Shown here: piece after piece, positions 21,095 through 37,551 of the stretch | Layout: the number at the start of each line of letters is the position of its first letter | How positions within the stretch are numbered: the first letter of the stretch is position 1 | Source: Deltaproteobacteria bacterium | GTDB lineage: Bacteria > Myxococcota > Myxococcia > SLRQ01 | DNA: 64,000 bases | Assembly (NCBI GenBank): GCA_029210625.1 | Contig: JARGFU010000011.1 | Location: 124,001-188,000 of the forward strand | Direction of reading: 5' to 3' | Position numbers and translations under genes: made by a program | Notes under the pieces: generated by a model | Seen by the model: only the letters and a program-made list of their open reading frames with translations | What the model was told of the DNA's origin: nothing | Database searches by the model: none

Positions 21095-21919
21095 CTATTC
21101 CACCCGCGCCACCACCCACTGTGGGCGCGTGTGACCTTCCACAAAGACCTCCCTTGGCGCCTCTCCCCTCTCGGAGAGAAGCAGGAGGAGATGATCGAGG
21201 CGCTTCATCCGCGCCCCGAGCTCGTTCCGGCCGAGGTGCGCCACCAGCGGCGGCGCAGCGTCGGACTCGGCGAGGGTGAGGCTGGTCCCGCGGACGGGAT
21301 CCCGGTGGATCTCCGCCAGGGGCCGCCGGCCCTCGATCTCGTTCCAGGCCGCGAGCACGGCGAGGGCCTGCCGGAGCGGCTCTCGCAGCTCGGCGGCGCT
21401 CGCCTCGGTGTCGAGGCCGGTGATCACCGGCAGGCCCCGTGGGTCGCTGCCGGGATCGAAGTTCTTGAAGATCGTCCCCTCCCCGTCGACGAGGTAGAGG
21501 CCCCCCTGCACCGCGATGGCCTTCGCCACGTGCTCCTCGACCTCGATCGAGAGGCCCGCGGGCCAGTCCTTCCGGACGTGGGCGTGCCGGATCCAGGGGT
21601 GGCTCTCGAGGCGCGCCTCGATCTCGTCACCGTCGATCCGCCACAGGTTCGTGCCCGGGCGGATGCGGGCGAGGTCGGCCAGCTGGTCGAGCCGGGCCCG
21701 GTGGTTGCCGGCGAAGCGCACGTCCCGCACGGCGAGGTGAGGCGTGGAGGTCAGCCAGAGGTAGCCGGCGATGACCCCCCCGAAGGTGAGGGTGACCACC
21801 GTGAGGGCGGCCAGGAGGCGCGCCGCCGAGAGGACGACGGCGCGGAACACACCACGGCGCCTGGCCTTCTTGACCTCGGCCGGCTGCACTCGCCGGTTGC
21901 CGGTGCTGGTGCGCGCCAT
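21095..21919 (-). CDS. ftsQ: Cell division protein FtsQ
   Basis: 274 residues from ATG 21919, which shares one base with the ddl stop (TGATG). A basic cytoplasmic tail (about 1-25) is followed by one transmembrane helix (about 26-55). The POTRA domain follows: VRDVRFAGNHRARLDQL, then GTNLWRIDGDEIEARLESHPWIRHAHVRKDWP. The rest is the beta domain of FtsQ/DivIB with VDGEGTIF and LPVITGLD. It bridges early and late division proteins in the periplasm. A 119-bp gap before ftsA is the longest break in the distal half of the cluster and could hold a secondary promoter for ftsA-ftsZ (not proven). Confidence 0.92.
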   Translation of the reverse strand: MARTSTGNRRVQPAEVKKARRRGVFRAVVLSAARLLAALTVVTLTFGGVIAGYLWLTSTPHLAVRDVRFAGNHRARLDQLADLARIRPGTNLWRIDGDEIEARLESHPWIRHAHVRKDWPAGLSIEVEEHVAKAIAVQGGLYLVDGEGTIFKNFDPGSDPRGLPVITGLDTEASAAELREPLRQALAVLAAWNEIEGRRPLAEIHRDPVRGTSLTLAESDAAPPLVAHLGRNELGARMKRLDHLLLLLSERGEAPREVFVEGHTRPQWVVARVE

Positions 21920-22872
21920 CAGCCCTCGCGCTCCTTCTCCAGGCCCGCCCCCAGGAGGAGGCGCTCGCAGAGCTCCGCGAAGGAGATGCCACGGCCGGCG
22001 GCGATCTTGGGGACCAGGCTGGTGCCGGTCATCCCGGGCAGGGTGTTGAGCTCGAGGAGCTGGGGGACGTCGTCCTCGGGCACGATGAAATCCGAGCGGG
22101 TGACGCCCTTGCAGCCCAGCGCCACGTGCGCCCGTCGGGCGAAGCCGTGGACGGCCTGCGCCACCTCCTCGGAGAGGGGCGCGGGCACGAGGTACTGGGT
22201 GCCGCTCTGCTTGTCGTACTTGGCGGTGTAGTCGTACCACTCCCGGGCGGGGCGGATCTCGACGGTGCCCAGCGCCTCGCCGTCGAGGACGGCCACCGAG
22301 ATCTCGCGGCCGGCCACGAAGCGCTCGATGAGAAGGTCGCCGGGGAAGGCAGCGGCGGCCTCGAGAGCGGCGGCGAGCTCACCCTCGCTCTTGACGATGG
22401 TGATCCCCACGCTCGAGCCCTCGCAGTCGGGCTTCACCACGCAGGGCAGGGGCAGCTCGAGATCCTCGGGGCCGAAGCCCGCGATCTCGGAGGCGAGGAC
22501 GACCTGGTACTCGGCGGTGGGGAGGCCCGAGGCGTGGAAGACCCGCTTCGAGGCGACCTTGGACATCGCCAGCGCCGAGGCGAGCACGCCGGAGCCGGTG
22601 TAGGGCAGGCCGAGGCACTCGAGGAGGCCCTGCACGCAGCCGTCCTCACCCCAGCGCCCGTGGAGGGCGTTGAAGACCGCGAGAGGCTCGAGGCGGGTGA
22701 GCTGCCCGGCGAGATCCTCCCGGGCGTCGACCCGCTCGACGGTATAGCCCAGCGACTCGAGCGCGGCGGCGCAGGCCTCGCCGGTGTTGAGGGAGACCTC
22801 TCGCTCGGAGGAGTCCCCTCCGAGGAGGACGGCGACCTTGCCCGCCTTCAGTGCCTCTGCGTTCGCGACCAC
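21919..22872 (-). CDS. ddl: D-alanine--D-alanine ligase
   Basis: 317 residues, starting with a GTG that shares one base with the murB stop (TAGTG). It makes D-Ala-D-Ala for the peptidoglycan stem. The ATP-grasp family motifs are present: VAVLLGGDSSEREVSLNTG at the N-terminus, NALHGRWGEDGCVQG, YTGSGVLASALAMSK, KPDCEGSSVGI (ATP loop), GVTRSDFI and ELNTLPGMTGTSLVPK (metal and substrate binding). The Tyr of the EWYDYTAKY segment also fits Ddl. Length is typical (about 305-320). Confidence 0.97.
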   Translation of the reverse strand: MVANAEALKAGKVAVLLGGDSSEREVSLNTGEACAAALESLGYTVERVDAREDLAGQLTRLEPLAVFNALHGRWGEDGCVQGLLECLGLPYTGSGVLASALAMSKVASKRVFHASGLPTAEYQVVLASEIAGFGPEDLELPLPCVVKPDCEGSSVGITIVKSEGELAAALEAAAAFPGDLLIERFVAGREISVAVLDGEALGTVEIRPAREWYDYTAKYDKQSGTQYLVPAPLSEEVAQAVHGFARRAHVALGCKGVTRSDFIVPEDDVPQLLELNTLPGMTGTSLVPKIAAGRGISFAELCERLLLGAGLEKEREG

Positions 22873-33168: not shown

Positions 33169-35193
33169 TCAGCCTCGGGGTGCAAGCACGAGCTCCACGG
33201 GGGTGCCCGGTCCGGCCACGGTGCCCGGAAGGGGGTTCTGGTTCAGGACGATGCCCGAGCCGCTGGGGCGCGGCTCGAGCTTGCGCTCGGCCAGGAGGTC
33301 GATGGCCCGCAGCAGATCCATCCCCCGGGCGTCGGGCACGAGGGTCTTGCCCTCGGGCGGCGCGACCAGGCCCATGGGCAGGAGCGCGGTCATGGTCTCG
33401 GGGGCCTCCTCGGCGGGCTCCGGGGCGGCCTCGGCCACCGCCGGGAGGGGCTCGGTGGCCGGCACGCCGAGGTAGCGCAGGCTGTCCTCGGCGATCTCGC
33501 GGAAGGCCGGGCCGGCGACGACGCCGCCGTACTTCACGCCCTGCGGCTCGTCGATGACCACCAGGATGGTCAGGCGCGGCGCCTTCGAGGGGACGAAGCC
33601 GACGAAGGAGCCCACCCGGGCGTCGGGGGAGTAGCCGCCGATCAGGGGGTCGGGCTTCTGGGAGGTGCCGGTCTTGCCCGCGACCGTGAAGCCGGGCACC
33701 GCGGCCCGCGGGCCGGTGCCGCCGGGCCGGGCGACGTCCTCCATCATCCGGGTCAGGGCCTGGGTGGTGGCCTCGGAGAAGACCCGGCGCTCGAGGCGCG
33801 GGCCGCTCTCGATGACCTCGCCGTCGGCGGTCTCGATCCGCGAGACCAGGTAGGGCCGGAAGTAGTTGCCGCCGTTGGCGACCACCGAGGCCGCCGTCAC
33901 CACCTGCAGGGGGGTGACCGCCGGGCCCTGGCCGAAGGACATGGTCGCCAGCTCGACCGGGCCGATCTTCCCGCGCTGGAACATGATGCCGGTCTGCTCG
34001 CCGGGGAGCTCGATCCCGCTGCGCCGGCCGAAGCCGAGGGACTCGAGGGTGTCGAGGAGGCGGTCGGGCCCGAGCATCGCGCCGATCTTCGCCGCGCCGA
34101 TGTTCGAGGAGGTCGAGAGGATCTCGGAGACGGTGAGGGTCTTCTCGGGGTGGCTGTCGTGGATCGTCCGGCCGGCGAGCCGCATCGCCCCGCCCTCGGT
34201 GTCGATGACCGTGCGCGGTCCCACCAGGCCCGCCTCGAGGGCCGCGCCGAGGGTGAAGATCTTGAAGGTGGAGCCCGGCTCGTAGACGTCGGTGATGGTC
34301 CGGTTCCGGCGGCTGTCGCGGCTCGAGGCGCCGGCGTCGTTGGGGTTGTAGGTGGGGTAGCTGGCCATCGCCAGGAGCGCGCCGGTCTGCGGATCCATCA
34401 CCAGGGCCATGCCCGCCTTGGCCTCGGCCTCCTTCACCGCCCGCTGCAGCGCCCGCTCGGTGATCCACTGGATGGTGCGATCGAGGGTGAGGGTCACCCT
34501 GCCGACCGAGGCGGTGGCCTCGTCGAAGGGATCGTCCTGGAGCAGGCGGCGGCCCCGGGCGTCCCGCAGCGCCGAGGCCGAGGCGCGCTGGCCGCGGAGG
34601 CGCCCGTCGAGGGAGAGCTCGAGCCCCTCGAGGCCCTTGCCGTCGATCCCGACGAAGCCCAGGACCTGCGCGGCCAGCTCCCGGTGAGGCGCGAAGCGCC
34701 GCGACTCGCCGACCAGGCGAACGCCCGGCAGCCCGAGGGCCTCGACGGCGCGGGCCTCGGCCGGCGGGATGCGCCGCTTCACCCAGGAGAAGTAGCGCCC
34801 CTTCGAGAGGCGCGCCTCGACCCGGGAGGGATCGAGGTGGAGCGCCCGGGCCAGCTGGCGGGCCGCGGCCGGGAGGTCGGGGAGCTTGCTCGGATCGACC
34901 GCCACCGACTCGACGTCCACCGAGAGGGCGAGGGCCTCGCCGTTGCGATCCTCGATCCGGGCACGCTGGTTCTGGACCACGACCTCGCGCAGCGTCTGGC
35001 TGCGCGCCATCTCGGAGAGGCGCTCGTGCTGGAGGACCTGCAGGTCCACCGCCCGCCAGGCCAGGGCGATCAGGCCGAGGCTCAGCACGACCCCCACGAT
35101 CGCGACCCTCGCCCGCATCCAGGAGAGGGCCACCCGGTTGTCGGCCTTCTTCCGCCCGTCCCTGGAGCGGCTCTTCCCGGCGGGCCTAGCCAT
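33169..35193 (-). CDS. ftsI: Septal transpeptidase FtsI (PBP3) with a C-terminal PASTA domain
   Basis: 674 residues, class B penicillin-binding protein that cross-links septal peptidoglycan. A basic tail is followed by one membrane helix (about 29-47). The N-terminal pedestal includes RARIEDRNGEALALS. The transpeptidase domain has the serine motif EPGSTFKIF (SxxK), STSSN (SxN) and AGKTGTSQK (KTG), all intact. After it comes a Pro/Ala/Glu linker and one PASTA domain (VPDARGMDLLRAIDLLAE to the end). A PASTA domain is usual in Gram-positive and some deltaproteobacterial FtsI, but not in E. coli. It overlaps ftsL by 8 bases. Confidence 0.96.
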   Translation of the reverse strand: MARPAGKSRSRDGRKKADNRVALSWMRARVAIVGVVLSLGLIALAWRAVDLQVLQHERLSEMARSQTLREVVVQNQRARIEDRNGEALALSVDVESVAVDPSKLPDLPAAARQLARALHLDPSRVEARLSKGRYFSWVKRRIPPAEARAVEALGLPGVRLVGESRRFAPHRELAAQVLGFVGIDGKGLEGLELSLDGRLRGQRASASALRDARGRRLLQDDPFDEATASVGRVTLTLDRTIQWITERALQRAVKEAEAKAGMALVMDPQTGALLAMASYPTYNPNDAGASSRDSRRNRTITDVYEPGSTFKIFTLGAALEAGLVGPRTVIDTEGGAMRLAGRTIHDSHPEKTLTVSEILSTSSNIGAAKIGAMLGPDRLLDTLESLGFGRRSGIELPGEQTGIMFQRGKIGPVELATMSFGQGPAVTPLQVVTAASVVANGGNYFRPYLVSRIETADGEVIESGPRLERRVFSEATTQALTRMMEDVARPGGTGPRAAVPGFTVAGKTGTSQKPDPLIGGYSPDARVGSFVGFVPSKAPRLTILVVIDEPQGVKYGGVVAGPAFREIAEDSLRYLGVPATEPLPAVAEAAPEPAEEAPETMTALLPMGLVAPPEGKTLVPDARGMDLLRAIDLLAERKLEPRPSGSGIVLNQNPLPGTVAGPGTPVELVLAPRG

Positions 35194-35548
35194 CCCCTCG
35201 GGCCTCGACGGCCGCCGGGGTGTCGCGGCGGGCGACCTTGGTGGGCGCGTTCGCCGGCTCGCGCACGACGGTGACCTCGCTGGCGCCCGGGGCGCGCATG
35301 CCCAGCTCCTGGCGGGCGATGCGCTCGATCCGGGCCGGCGCCTCGAGGGTCGCGACCTCCAGGTGCAGGCGCTCGTTCTCTCGCTGGAGGACCCGCTGCT
35401 CGCTGGTGGCCTGGGAGATGGCGTAGCCGATCCGCAGCCCCTCGATCCGCAGCCAGGTGTGGAAGAGGCCGGCCGCCGAGAAGGAGGCGACGATGAGGAT
35501 CGCCGCGATCACCGGCAGGAGCTCGATGCGGCGCCGGGGCTCAGACAT
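35186..35548 (-). CDS. ftsL: Cell division protein FtsL-like
   Basis: 120 residues with a short basic tail, one membrane helix (about 11-30: LPVIAAILIVASFSAAGLF) and a periplasmic coiled-coil (EQRVLQRENERLHLEVATLEAPARIERIARQELGM), the pattern of FtsL. The sequence is not strongly conserved in this family, so the call leans on position between rsmH and ftsI and on topology. It overlaps rsmH and ftsI by 8 bases each. FtsL pairs with FtsB and FtsQ to activate FtsWI. Confidence 0.85.
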   Translation of the reverse strand: MSEPRRRIELLPVIAAILIVASFSAAGLFHTWLRIEGLRIGYAISQATSEQRVLQRENERLHLEVATLEAPARIERIARQELGMRAPGASEVTVVREPANAPTKVARRDTPAAVEARGDG

Positions 35549-36539
35549 CGCTCACCTCCAGCCACTCGAGGGCGCGCAGGTGGGCCGAGCGGGCCCGGGG
35601 GTTGCGGGCGATCTCGTCCGCGTCGGGCTCGAGGCCCTTGCGGGTGAGCAGGCGGCCGCGGGCGACCTTGCCGCAGGCGCAGACCGGGAAGTCGGGGGGG
35701 CAGGTGCAGCCCCGGGCCAGCTCCCGCAGGGCCTGCTTCACCGGCCGGTCCTCGAGGGAGTGGAAGGAGAGGAAGGCCGCCCGCCCGCCGGTGCGCAGCA
35801 CCGAGGGGAGGCTCGCCAGGAGGGCCTCGAGCTCGGCGAGCTCGTCGTTGACCCAGATCCGCAGGGCCTGGAAGGTGCGGGTGGCCGGGTGGATCCGGCG
35901 GCCCCGCTTGCCCCCGGAGCGCCCGGGGGGCACGAGGCCGGCGACGAGCTCGGCGAGGCGCCGGGTGCCGGTGAGCTCACCCTCCTCGAGGGCGGCGAGG
36001 ATGGCCCGGGCGATCTTCCGGGAGGCCTTCTCGTCGCCGTAGCGCCAGAGCACGCCGGCCAGGGTGTCGGTGTCGACCGCGGCGAGGCGCTCGGCGAGGG
36101 AGGCGCTGCGGGTCTGGTCCATCCGCATGTCGAGGGGCCCGTTCTCCTGGAAGGAGAAGCCGCGGGCGGCGACGTCGAGCTGCGGGGAGGAGACCCCCAG
36201 GTCGGCGAAGAGGGCGTCGACCCGCCCTCCCCGTCCGGCGAGGATCGCCCCGGCCTCGGAGAAGGGGGCGTGCACGAGGGTGAGGCGGGGCTCGTCACCG
36301 AAGCGGGCGCGGGCCGCCTCGATCGCGTCGCGATCGCGATCGAGGGCGATGACCTCGGCGCCGGTGGCCAGGAGCAGGGCGGTGTGCCCGCCGCGGCCGA
36401 GGGTGCAGTCGAGGGCGCGCTTGCCCGGGCCGAGGACCGGCTCGAGCAGCGCGCGCACCTCGGCCTCCATCACCGGATGGTGTCCGTGAGGTGCGTTTGC
36501 GCTCGATGCCATCAGCTCGGTTACAGCAACAGCGGGCAT
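35541..36539 (-). CDS. rsmH: 16S rRNA (cytosine(1402)-N(4))-methyltransferase
   Basis: 332 residues from ATG 36539; ATGs at 36512 (323 residues) and 36596 are other options. It methylates C1402 in the ribosomal P site using S-adenosylmethionine. Motifs: HHPVM at the N-terminus, LDCTLGRGGHTALLL (SAM loop), ALDRDRDAI, ALFADLGVSSPQLD, GFSFQENGPLDMRMD and ATRTFQALRIWVNDEL. The C-terminus FLSFHSLEDRPVKQAL and ARSAHLRALE also match. It is followed by ftsL with 8 bases of overlap. Confidence 0.96.
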   Translation of the reverse strand: MPAVAVTELMASSANAPHGHHPVMEAEVRALLEPVLGPGKRALDCTLGRGGHTALLLATGAEVIALDRDRDAIEAARARFGDEPRLTLVHAPFSEAGAILAGRGGRVDALFADLGVSSPQLDVAARGFSFQENGPLDMRMDQTRSASLAERLAAVDTDTLAGVLWRYGDEKASRKIARAILAALEEGELTGTRRLAELVAGLVPPGRSGGKRGRRIHPATRTFQALRIWVNDELAELEALLASLPSVLRTGGRAAFLSFHSLEDRPVKQALRELARGCTCPPDFPVCACGKVARGRLLTRKGLEPDADEIARNPRARSAHLRALEWLEVSDV

Positions 36540-36600
36540 GTCTCGATCAAGTGAGAGAAAGGCGCCCCGGATCGGTCCACACCCGGAGACGCCCACCGGT

Positions 36601-37002
36601 TCAGTTCATCTGCGGGACCCAGCTTCCACTCGCGCCGGCAACAAGATCGTAGGAGCGTTGCATTCGCTGTGCGCCGTGCGCCACGCAAGCGAGCTCCGGG
36701 GTGTCGAAGATCTGGAAGAGCTCGTCGACACCGGTGAAGCGCAGGATCTTCTCGAGGTAGCCCGAGAGCCCCGCCAGGAAGAGCGCGCCGCCGCTGCGGT
36801 GCAGCCGGCCCGCGCGCTCCACCAGGACCCCGAGGGTCATGTAGTTGATGTGATCGACCTCGGTGAGATCGAGGACGAAGCGCGTCTGACCCTGGCGCAG
36901 GCTCTCCGAGATGACGTTCTTCACGCGCACCATCTCGGAGTGGTTGATGTCGCCCTCGGGGGTGATGACCACCACACCAGTTCGGGTCTCGATTCTCGGC
37001 AT
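36601..37002 (-). CDS. STAS-domain protein (anti-sigma-factor-antagonist type) inside the dcw cluster
   Basis: 133 residues from ATG 37002, which has GAGGAAA 6 bases upstream. The protein is one STAS domain: VVVITPEGDINHSEMVRVKNVI, RFVLDLTEVDHINYMTLGVLVERAGRL, then GGALFLAGLSGYLEKILRFTGVDELFQIFDT. In SpoIIAA-type antagonists the loop before the helix is DSSG, with a phosphorylated Ser. Here the loop reads NYMT (53-56), so the usual phospho-Ser is absent, though the Thr is close. It sits between mraZ (14 bp) and rsmH, where a STAS gene is not usual. It may link a sigma factor or stress pathway to division, or be a scaffold (inference). Confidence 0.85.
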   Translation of the reverse strand: MPRIETRTGVVVITPEGDINHSEMVRVKNVISESLRQGQTRFVLDLTEVDHINYMTLGVLVERAGRLHRSGGALFLAGLSGYLEKILRFTGVDELFQIFDTPELACVAHGAQRMQRSYDLVAGASGSWVPQMN

Positions 37003-37016
37003 GAGCTTTCCTCGCT

Positions 37017-37460
37017 TCAGATCTCGAGGTCGAGATCGGCGATGGCGGCCTGAACCTCGGCCGGGTCGAAGGACTGCGCGTCGGGAGTCCACTTGTCGCG
37101 GGCCCAGAGCTCGATGAAGGAGAGCTGGCCCACGAAGACGATCTCGCGCTCGAAGCCCGCGTAGGACCGGAGCGGAGGGGGGATGAGGATGCGGCCGTGG
37201 CGGTCGGCCGAGATCTCGTGGGCCCGGCCGATCAGGGCGCGCTTGACGGTCCGGACCCGCTGGTCCATCGAGGGCAGGGCGGCGAGCTTGCGCTCGAGCT
37301 CCTCCCAGGCCTGCAGGGGGTAGAGCAGGAGGCAGGCGTCGAGGCCTGCGGTCGCCACCAGCCGGTCCGATCCCCCCGTCGAGAGCTGCTCTCGGAAGGA
37401 CGCCGGGAGGCTGGTCCGCCCCTTCGGGTCGATGGCGTGCTCGAATTCCCCCCTGAACAT
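37017..37460 (-). CDS. mraZ: Transcriptional regulator MraZ
   Basis: 147 residues with two AbrB-type (SpoVT-like) half-domains: DPKGRTSLPASFR near the N-terminus and DRHGRILIPPPLR in the middle. MraZ is an oligomeric DNA-binding repressor of its own operon. AAGGAA lies about 8 bases before the ATG. It is the first gene of the dcw cluster, and its predicted operator is at 37516-37551. Confidence 0.96.
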   Translation of the reverse strand: MFRGEFEHAIDPKGRTSLPASFREQLSTGGSDRLVATAGLDACLLLYPLQAWEELERKLAALPSMDQRVRTVKRALIGRAHEISADRHGRILIPPPLRSYAGFEREIVFVGQLSFIELWARDKWTPDAQSFDPAEVQAAIADLDLEI

Positions 37461-37515: not shown

Positions 37516-37551
37516 TCCCATCTATGACACTTGATCCCACTTCATACCACT
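37516..37551 (-). promoter_or_regulatory. MraZ operator: four 10-bp-spaced TGGG-like boxes
   Basis: Read on the minus strand, in order toward mraZ: GTGGT (37546-37550), GTGGG (37536-37540), GTGTC (37526-37530), TGGGA (37516-37520), each 10 bases from the next. MraZ binds direct GTGG/TGGG-type repeats in this spacing upstream of mraZ in other bacteria. The boxes lie 56-91 bases before the mraZ ATG and just downstream of the possible -10 region, where binding would repress. Confidence 0.8.

Follow-up and report, generated by a model that had tools for sequence, protein, structure and literature searches.

The closest described relatives of the protein considered here are single-domain STAS proteins. 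SpoIIAA and RsbV, represented by the NCBIfam models TIGR00377 and TIGR02886, consist of one STAS domain, and the phosphorylation site of SpoIIAA is Ser58 (PMC3517971). SypA of Vibrio fischeri belongs with other non-canonical single-domain STAS outputs; it is thought to be an output and not an anti-anti-sigma factor, and it retains a phosphoserine (Ser56) together with a dedicated kinase/phosphatase, SypE (PMC10120452). RsbS, again a single STAS domain, forms the stressosome with RsbR and RsbT, whereas MlaB, a subunit of a phospholipid ABC transporter that is encoded with the rest of the Mla transporter, places the same domain in the service of the cell envelope.

Few bacterial operons are as conserved as the dcw cluster, whose inventory of genes is regarded as complete. 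Here we describe a STAS-domain gene in the second slot of this cluster, located in a 64,000-nucleotide stretch of myxococcal DNA (the window), and the family of dcw-located proteins (dcw-STAS) to which it belongs. These proteins share the single domain and the fold of SpoIIAA and RsbV, yet they lack the phosphoacceptor serine, replace the interface Phe with a nearly invariant His, carry an extra signature residue, Tyr82, and are encoded in the dcw operon, with neither a cognate kinase nor a sigma factor nearby. SypA is likewise a single STAS domain, but unlike dcw-STAS it has kept its phosphoserine and its enzyme. The fold of RsbS is similar to the dcw-STAS model, although none of the stressosome genes is seen beside the dcw-STAS gene. 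MlaB gives a weak profile match (E 2.5e-4), but the neighbors of dcw-STAS are dcw genes and its loop differs. The STAS domain itself is known, and annotators will have named such genes STAS or anti-sigma antagonist; among the openly licensed papers searched, we found no description of the dcw slot, the two-phylum spread, or the residue signature reported below.

A STAS gene in the second slot of the dcw cluster

The open reading frame between mraZ and rsmH is a member of the STAS family (Table 1). It matches Pfam PF01740 with 64.8 bits (E = 6.7e-18; cut-off 22.6) and TIGR00377 with 67.1 bits (cut-off 53.45), while its 39.6 bits against TIGR02886 fall far under the cut-off of 114.75. The AlphaFold model (pLDDT 90.5) has a complete, SpoIIAA-like alpha/beta STAS fold, and the nearest of the PDB matches listed by Foldseek are SpoIIAA (E 2e-8, TM-score 0.74), RsbV, RsbS, and TM1442. 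A Shine-Dalgarno-like sequence, GAGGAAAG, lies upstream of the ATG, which follows the mraZ stop by 14 bp. On the other side, the rsmH frame is open up to a GTG at 36596, with its likely start at the ATG near 36539. Downstream of rsmH the order is ftsL, an ftsI-type penicillin-binding protein gene, murE, murF, mraY, ftsW, murG, murC, murB, and ftsA, in agreement with the sequence-only reading, which had called the cluster canonical apart from the STAS gene inserted after mraZ and before rsmH. Between murB and ftsA, in the ftsQ/ddl region, the minus strand of the window also holds a 381-aa open reading frame (21098–22240) without an NCBIfam match at E 1e-30.

Table 1. Position of the dcw-STAS gene, its neighbors, and its signature codons in the window
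Feature	Position	Strand	Details
STAS-domain gene, dcw slot 2	36601..37002	−	ORF from ATG 37002 to stop 36601; 133 aa
mraZ	37017..37460	−	147 aa; PF02381 E 1.2e-31; TIGR00242 over cut-off
rsmH (mraW)	35541..36539	−	PF01795 (Methyltransf_5) E 8.9e-89
ftsL	35186..35548	−	PF04999/PF04977 over cut-off
ftsI-type penicillin-binding protein	33169..35193	−	NCBIfam matches, best E 3.8e-137
MraZ-box-like repeats TGGTATGAAG-TGGGATCAAG-	37516..37549	−	89 to 56 nt 5′ of mraZ; pattern scan
Signature loop codons H51-I52-N53-Y54-M55-T56	36835..36852	−	Y54 at SpoIIAA Ser58; SpoIIAA profile alignment
Tyr82 codon, third signature residue	36757..36759	−	47/50 of the family vs 2/22 other STAS

The TGG repeats upstream of mraZ resemble MraZ boxes; with a 10-nt period, they occur 35–90 nt 5′ of mraZ in most Myxococcaceae-type loci, those of the window at −89. 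No internal promoter was found, and the single terminator-like match, inside rsmH, is at chance level. Given the tight gene order, the upstream MraZ-box-like repeats, and the lack of a detected internal promoter, the STAS gene should be co-expressed with the division proteins, a prediction that the sequence-only reading had also made. In Escherichia coli, MraZ represses the dcw operon via such boxes, according to work cited in PMC8475190.

Distribution in Myxococcota and Nitrospirota

A contig scan with the single window protein returned no relatives, whereas the family alignment as query recovered them. The mraZ–STAS–rsmH order was present in every locus retrieved for the first set of relatives, one of which, at a contig end, shows mraZ and STAS only. 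Across 146 sampled Myxococcota genomes, and as read from match positions, a STAS match lies directly 5′ of rsmH in all 98 genomes of the class, taken as Myxococcia in the broad sense, with named records that include Myxococcus, Corallococcus, Pyxidicoccus, Archangium, and Hyalangium. Outside the class, this sample places the gene in only one further class of Myxococcota, in the same slot in 3/3 genomes. The mraZ and rsmH domain matches are 48–251 bp apart in 28 other Myxococcota genomes, which therefore have no room for a STAS gene. In one genome of the same family as the window (G001), neither STAS nor mraZ was detected in an assembly that is only 85% complete and split into 550 contigs, so that no conclusion follows from their absence.

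Two side observations concern individual lineages. A record titled Comamonas sp. KCTC 72670 (BNCN01000001.1) contains a dcw cluster typical of Myxococcaceae and is probably mislabelled. In the Anaeromyxobacter-like family f3 (loci L034–L036, L038–L040, L043, L047, L048, L050, and L056), the STAS protein is about 100 aa long, with some 10 residues fewer around the second helix and the HLH-aromatic loop kept; this shortened domain could mean relaxed function.

The same gene order recurs in a second phylum. A scan of named genomes found it in three Nitrospirota loci (L086, L087, and L124), and the loci drawn from the best 30 matches place a STAS gene beside mraZ in at least 14 of 198 Nitrospirota genomes, with rsmH visible downstream in 13 of these 14 and the remaining locus masked there. 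The distance from the mraZ stop to the rsmH domain in this phylum is 8–142 bp without the STAS gene versus 414–490 bp with it. Conservation of the same slot across two phyla excludes chance as the source of the insertion. The sequence-only reading had proposed a check of gene order in related genomes and would have been undermined by an insertion peculiar to one genome and devoid of conserved loop residues; the slot is instead kept throughout the class, in a second class, and in a second phylum, with the loop residues conserved as well.

Transfer of the whole mraZ–STAS–rsmH block between phyla was considered and rejected. In a tree of mraZ plus rsmH, Nitrospirota with and without the STAS gene group together and apart from Myxococcota, which means that the three genes did not pass between phyla as a unit. 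The STAS gene may be an ancestral one that was later lost in places, or it may have spread by itself into this slot.

Residue signature and selection

A single branch separates 50 dcw-located STAS proteins from 22 other STAS proteins with support of 99/93, and the same branch keeps support of 89/90 when the loop columns are removed. By this tree, the dcw-located proteins share one origin as against the 22 other STAS proteins compared.

Profile alignment with Bacillus subtilis SpoIIAA sets D57-S58-S59-G60 against N53-Y54-M55-T56 of the window, the very replacement of DSSG by NYMT that had been read from the letters. The loss extends beyond the window, in which the aligned residue is Tyr54: Ser or Thr occupies the phosphoserine position in 1/50 dcw-STAS proteins versus 21/22 others, although the residue counts given here share ancestry and are not independent, such that Fisher values overstate significance and the counts describe a pattern rather than test it. 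Position 54 is Tyr in 29, Phe in 16, Arg in 3, His in 1, and Ser in 1 of the 50, so that Tyr or Phe is found in 45/50 versus 0/22 other STAS proteins. His51 is similarly distinctive (49/50 versus 0/22), and position 88 is Arg or Lys in 41/50, where other STAS proteins have mostly Glu or Asp. The window protein carries the signature residues H51, Y54, and Y82, which from the fold we infer to be close together. Among the best 30 Nitrospirota matches, the 14 dcw-located copies read H-[VI]-[NH]-[F/R], while the 16 other STAS proteins examined have Ser at the last of these positions, which makes this phylum a natural comparison. Three divergent dcw-located copies from Nitrospirota and the second Myxococcota class (L146, L159, and L160) bear Arg at the phosphoserine position in an EHI-x-R motif.

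The Phe that aligns with His51, together with Asp residues of the first turn, belongs to the kinase interface in SypA, SpoIIAA, and RsbV (PMC10120452). By analogy with these proteins, H51, the aromatic residue at 54, Y82, and the basic residue at 88 are shown to sit on positions that form or border the kinase-binding face. That the distinctive residues of dcw-STAS lie on the old partner face suggests that the partner was replaced rather than that binding was lost.

Pairwise dN/dS of the STAS gene ranges from 0.02 to 0.33 where measurable, and at the sequence level purifying selection is shown. Among the first three genes of the cluster, it nonetheless shows the lowest conservation, with about 30–37% identity to relatives versus 43–50% for MraZ and RsmH. 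In three genomes from a single genus (G113, G142, and G146), mraZ has no match anywhere and the dcw cluster begins with STAS–rsmH, the STAS dN/dS between them being 0.02–0.11; a fourth genome of this genus still has mraZ. As STAS–rsmH has been kept under strong constraint in the three mraZ-less genomes, MraZ is not the sole reason for the STAS gene to exist, and MraZ as the only partner of dcw-STAS is unlikely.

Candidate functions of dcw-STAS

In our assessment, the chances are about even that dcw-STAS is a phosphorylation-independent adaptor, belonging to an ancient single-domain family in slot 2 with a rebuilt partner face and co-produced with division and wall proteins. From an MraZ-controlled promoter, dcw-STAS would be made together with those proteins; it would hold one dedicated partner through its rebuilt face, and its activity would be set by its amount or by a ligand and not by Ser phosphorylation. 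The adaptor role is proposed by analogy with what STAS domains usually do. The partner would most likely act in envelope synthesis, in division, or at the RsmH step; an anti-sigma factor is a less likely partner than RsmH or a protein of the envelope or of division. More tentatively, the face formed by H51, the aromatic residue at 54, and Y82 may be the binding site for an unrecognized component of the divisome, of wall synthesis, or of the RsmH pathway. A role in division does not follow from conserved gene order, which may only ensure dosage.

One rival account is a classical anti-sigma-factor antagonist: by the usual partner switching it would bind an anti-sigma GHKL kinase and let it go again, coupling the dcw operon to a stress sigma factor. 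Fold and family model do match SpoIIAA and RsbV, and the genome encodes SpoIIE-type phosphatases and another STAS protein, but we consider this account unlikely, with Tyr, Phe, or Arg in place of the phosphoserine in 48/50 dcw-STAS proteins and the interface Phe exchanged for His. A PF13581 search of the whole genome found no stand-alone Ser kinase of the SpoIIAB/RsbW GHKL type; its best matches, in the cases examined, are ordinary histidine kinases with HisKA domains. At a genome completeness of about 98%, the lack of an RsbW-type kinase is probably genuine and not due to an overlooked gene, although a divergent one may be present. No sigma or anti-sigma gene adjoins the dcw-STAS gene. These observations bear out the doubt, voiced in the sequence-only reading, that a standard anti-sigma kinase controls the protein, while the link between stress signaling and cell wall synthesis suggested in that reading gained nothing from them, no anti-sigma partner or stress gene having been found linked to the STAS gene. 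The genome has three STAS domains, in a SulP transporter, in a copy with the loop IDST, and in the dcw-located protein; the copy with the IDSTN loop adjoins a response regulator fused to a SpoIIE-type phosphatase, with no obvious kinase beside it (L082, G000:C4:129218-130118). A phosphoswitch relocated to Tyr54, Thr56, or His51 is equally improbable. His51 is nearly invariant and Tyr54 common, yet position 54 is Phe in 16/50 and Arg in 3/50, and we know of no precedent in STAS proteins for a phosphorylated His at such a position. Thr56, the nearby Thr that the sequence-only reading had put forward as a phosphosite, is rejected as not conserved: this position is usually Gly in dcw-STAS, with Thr in 3/50.

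A function directed at the neighboring genes has somewhat more to recommend it. As a cofactor or modulator of RsmH (or MraZ), dcw-STAS would tune 16S methylation or dcw transcription; its constant place directly 5′ of rsmH, also where mraZ has been lost, favors this possibility, which we regard as doubtful though worth keeping in mind. In most bacteria rsmH functions without dcw-STAS, neighboring lineages lack the STAS gene, and the three mraZ losses speak against MraZ as the sole partner. For E. coli, PMC8475190 cites an antagonism between MraZ and MraW, which would fit such a modulator. The operon context would also suit a protein that regulates division directly, through FtsZ or the divisome, as a counterpart of the MinC N-terminal domain. 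That MinC domain is SpoIIAA-like, but MinC is absent among the PDB matches listed for the STAS model, and we deem this role distinctly unlikely. Least probable is a decaying or neutral paralogue trapped in the operon: the low identity and the shortening in family f3 might hint at it, but selection on the gene disfavors it, as do its retention throughout the class and its nearly invariant signature residues.

The preferred reading, a phosphorylation-independent adaptor, would make dcw-STAS a clear case in which a STAS partner face was kept and reshaped after the phosphoswitch had been given up. A slot-2 gene that is fixed across a class including Myxococcus xanthus, recurs in a second phylum, and bears its own signature offers a directly testable candidate for a division or wall factor that has been missed. 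If the face formed by H51, the aromatic residue at 54, and Y82 does bind an unrecognized component of the divisome, of wall synthesis, or of the RsmH pathway, Myxococcota and some Nitrospirota would have in dcw-STAS a dedicated, phosphorylation-independent regulator of cell division and wall synthesis, and a further functional dcw gene that is missing from the standard dcw gene lists.
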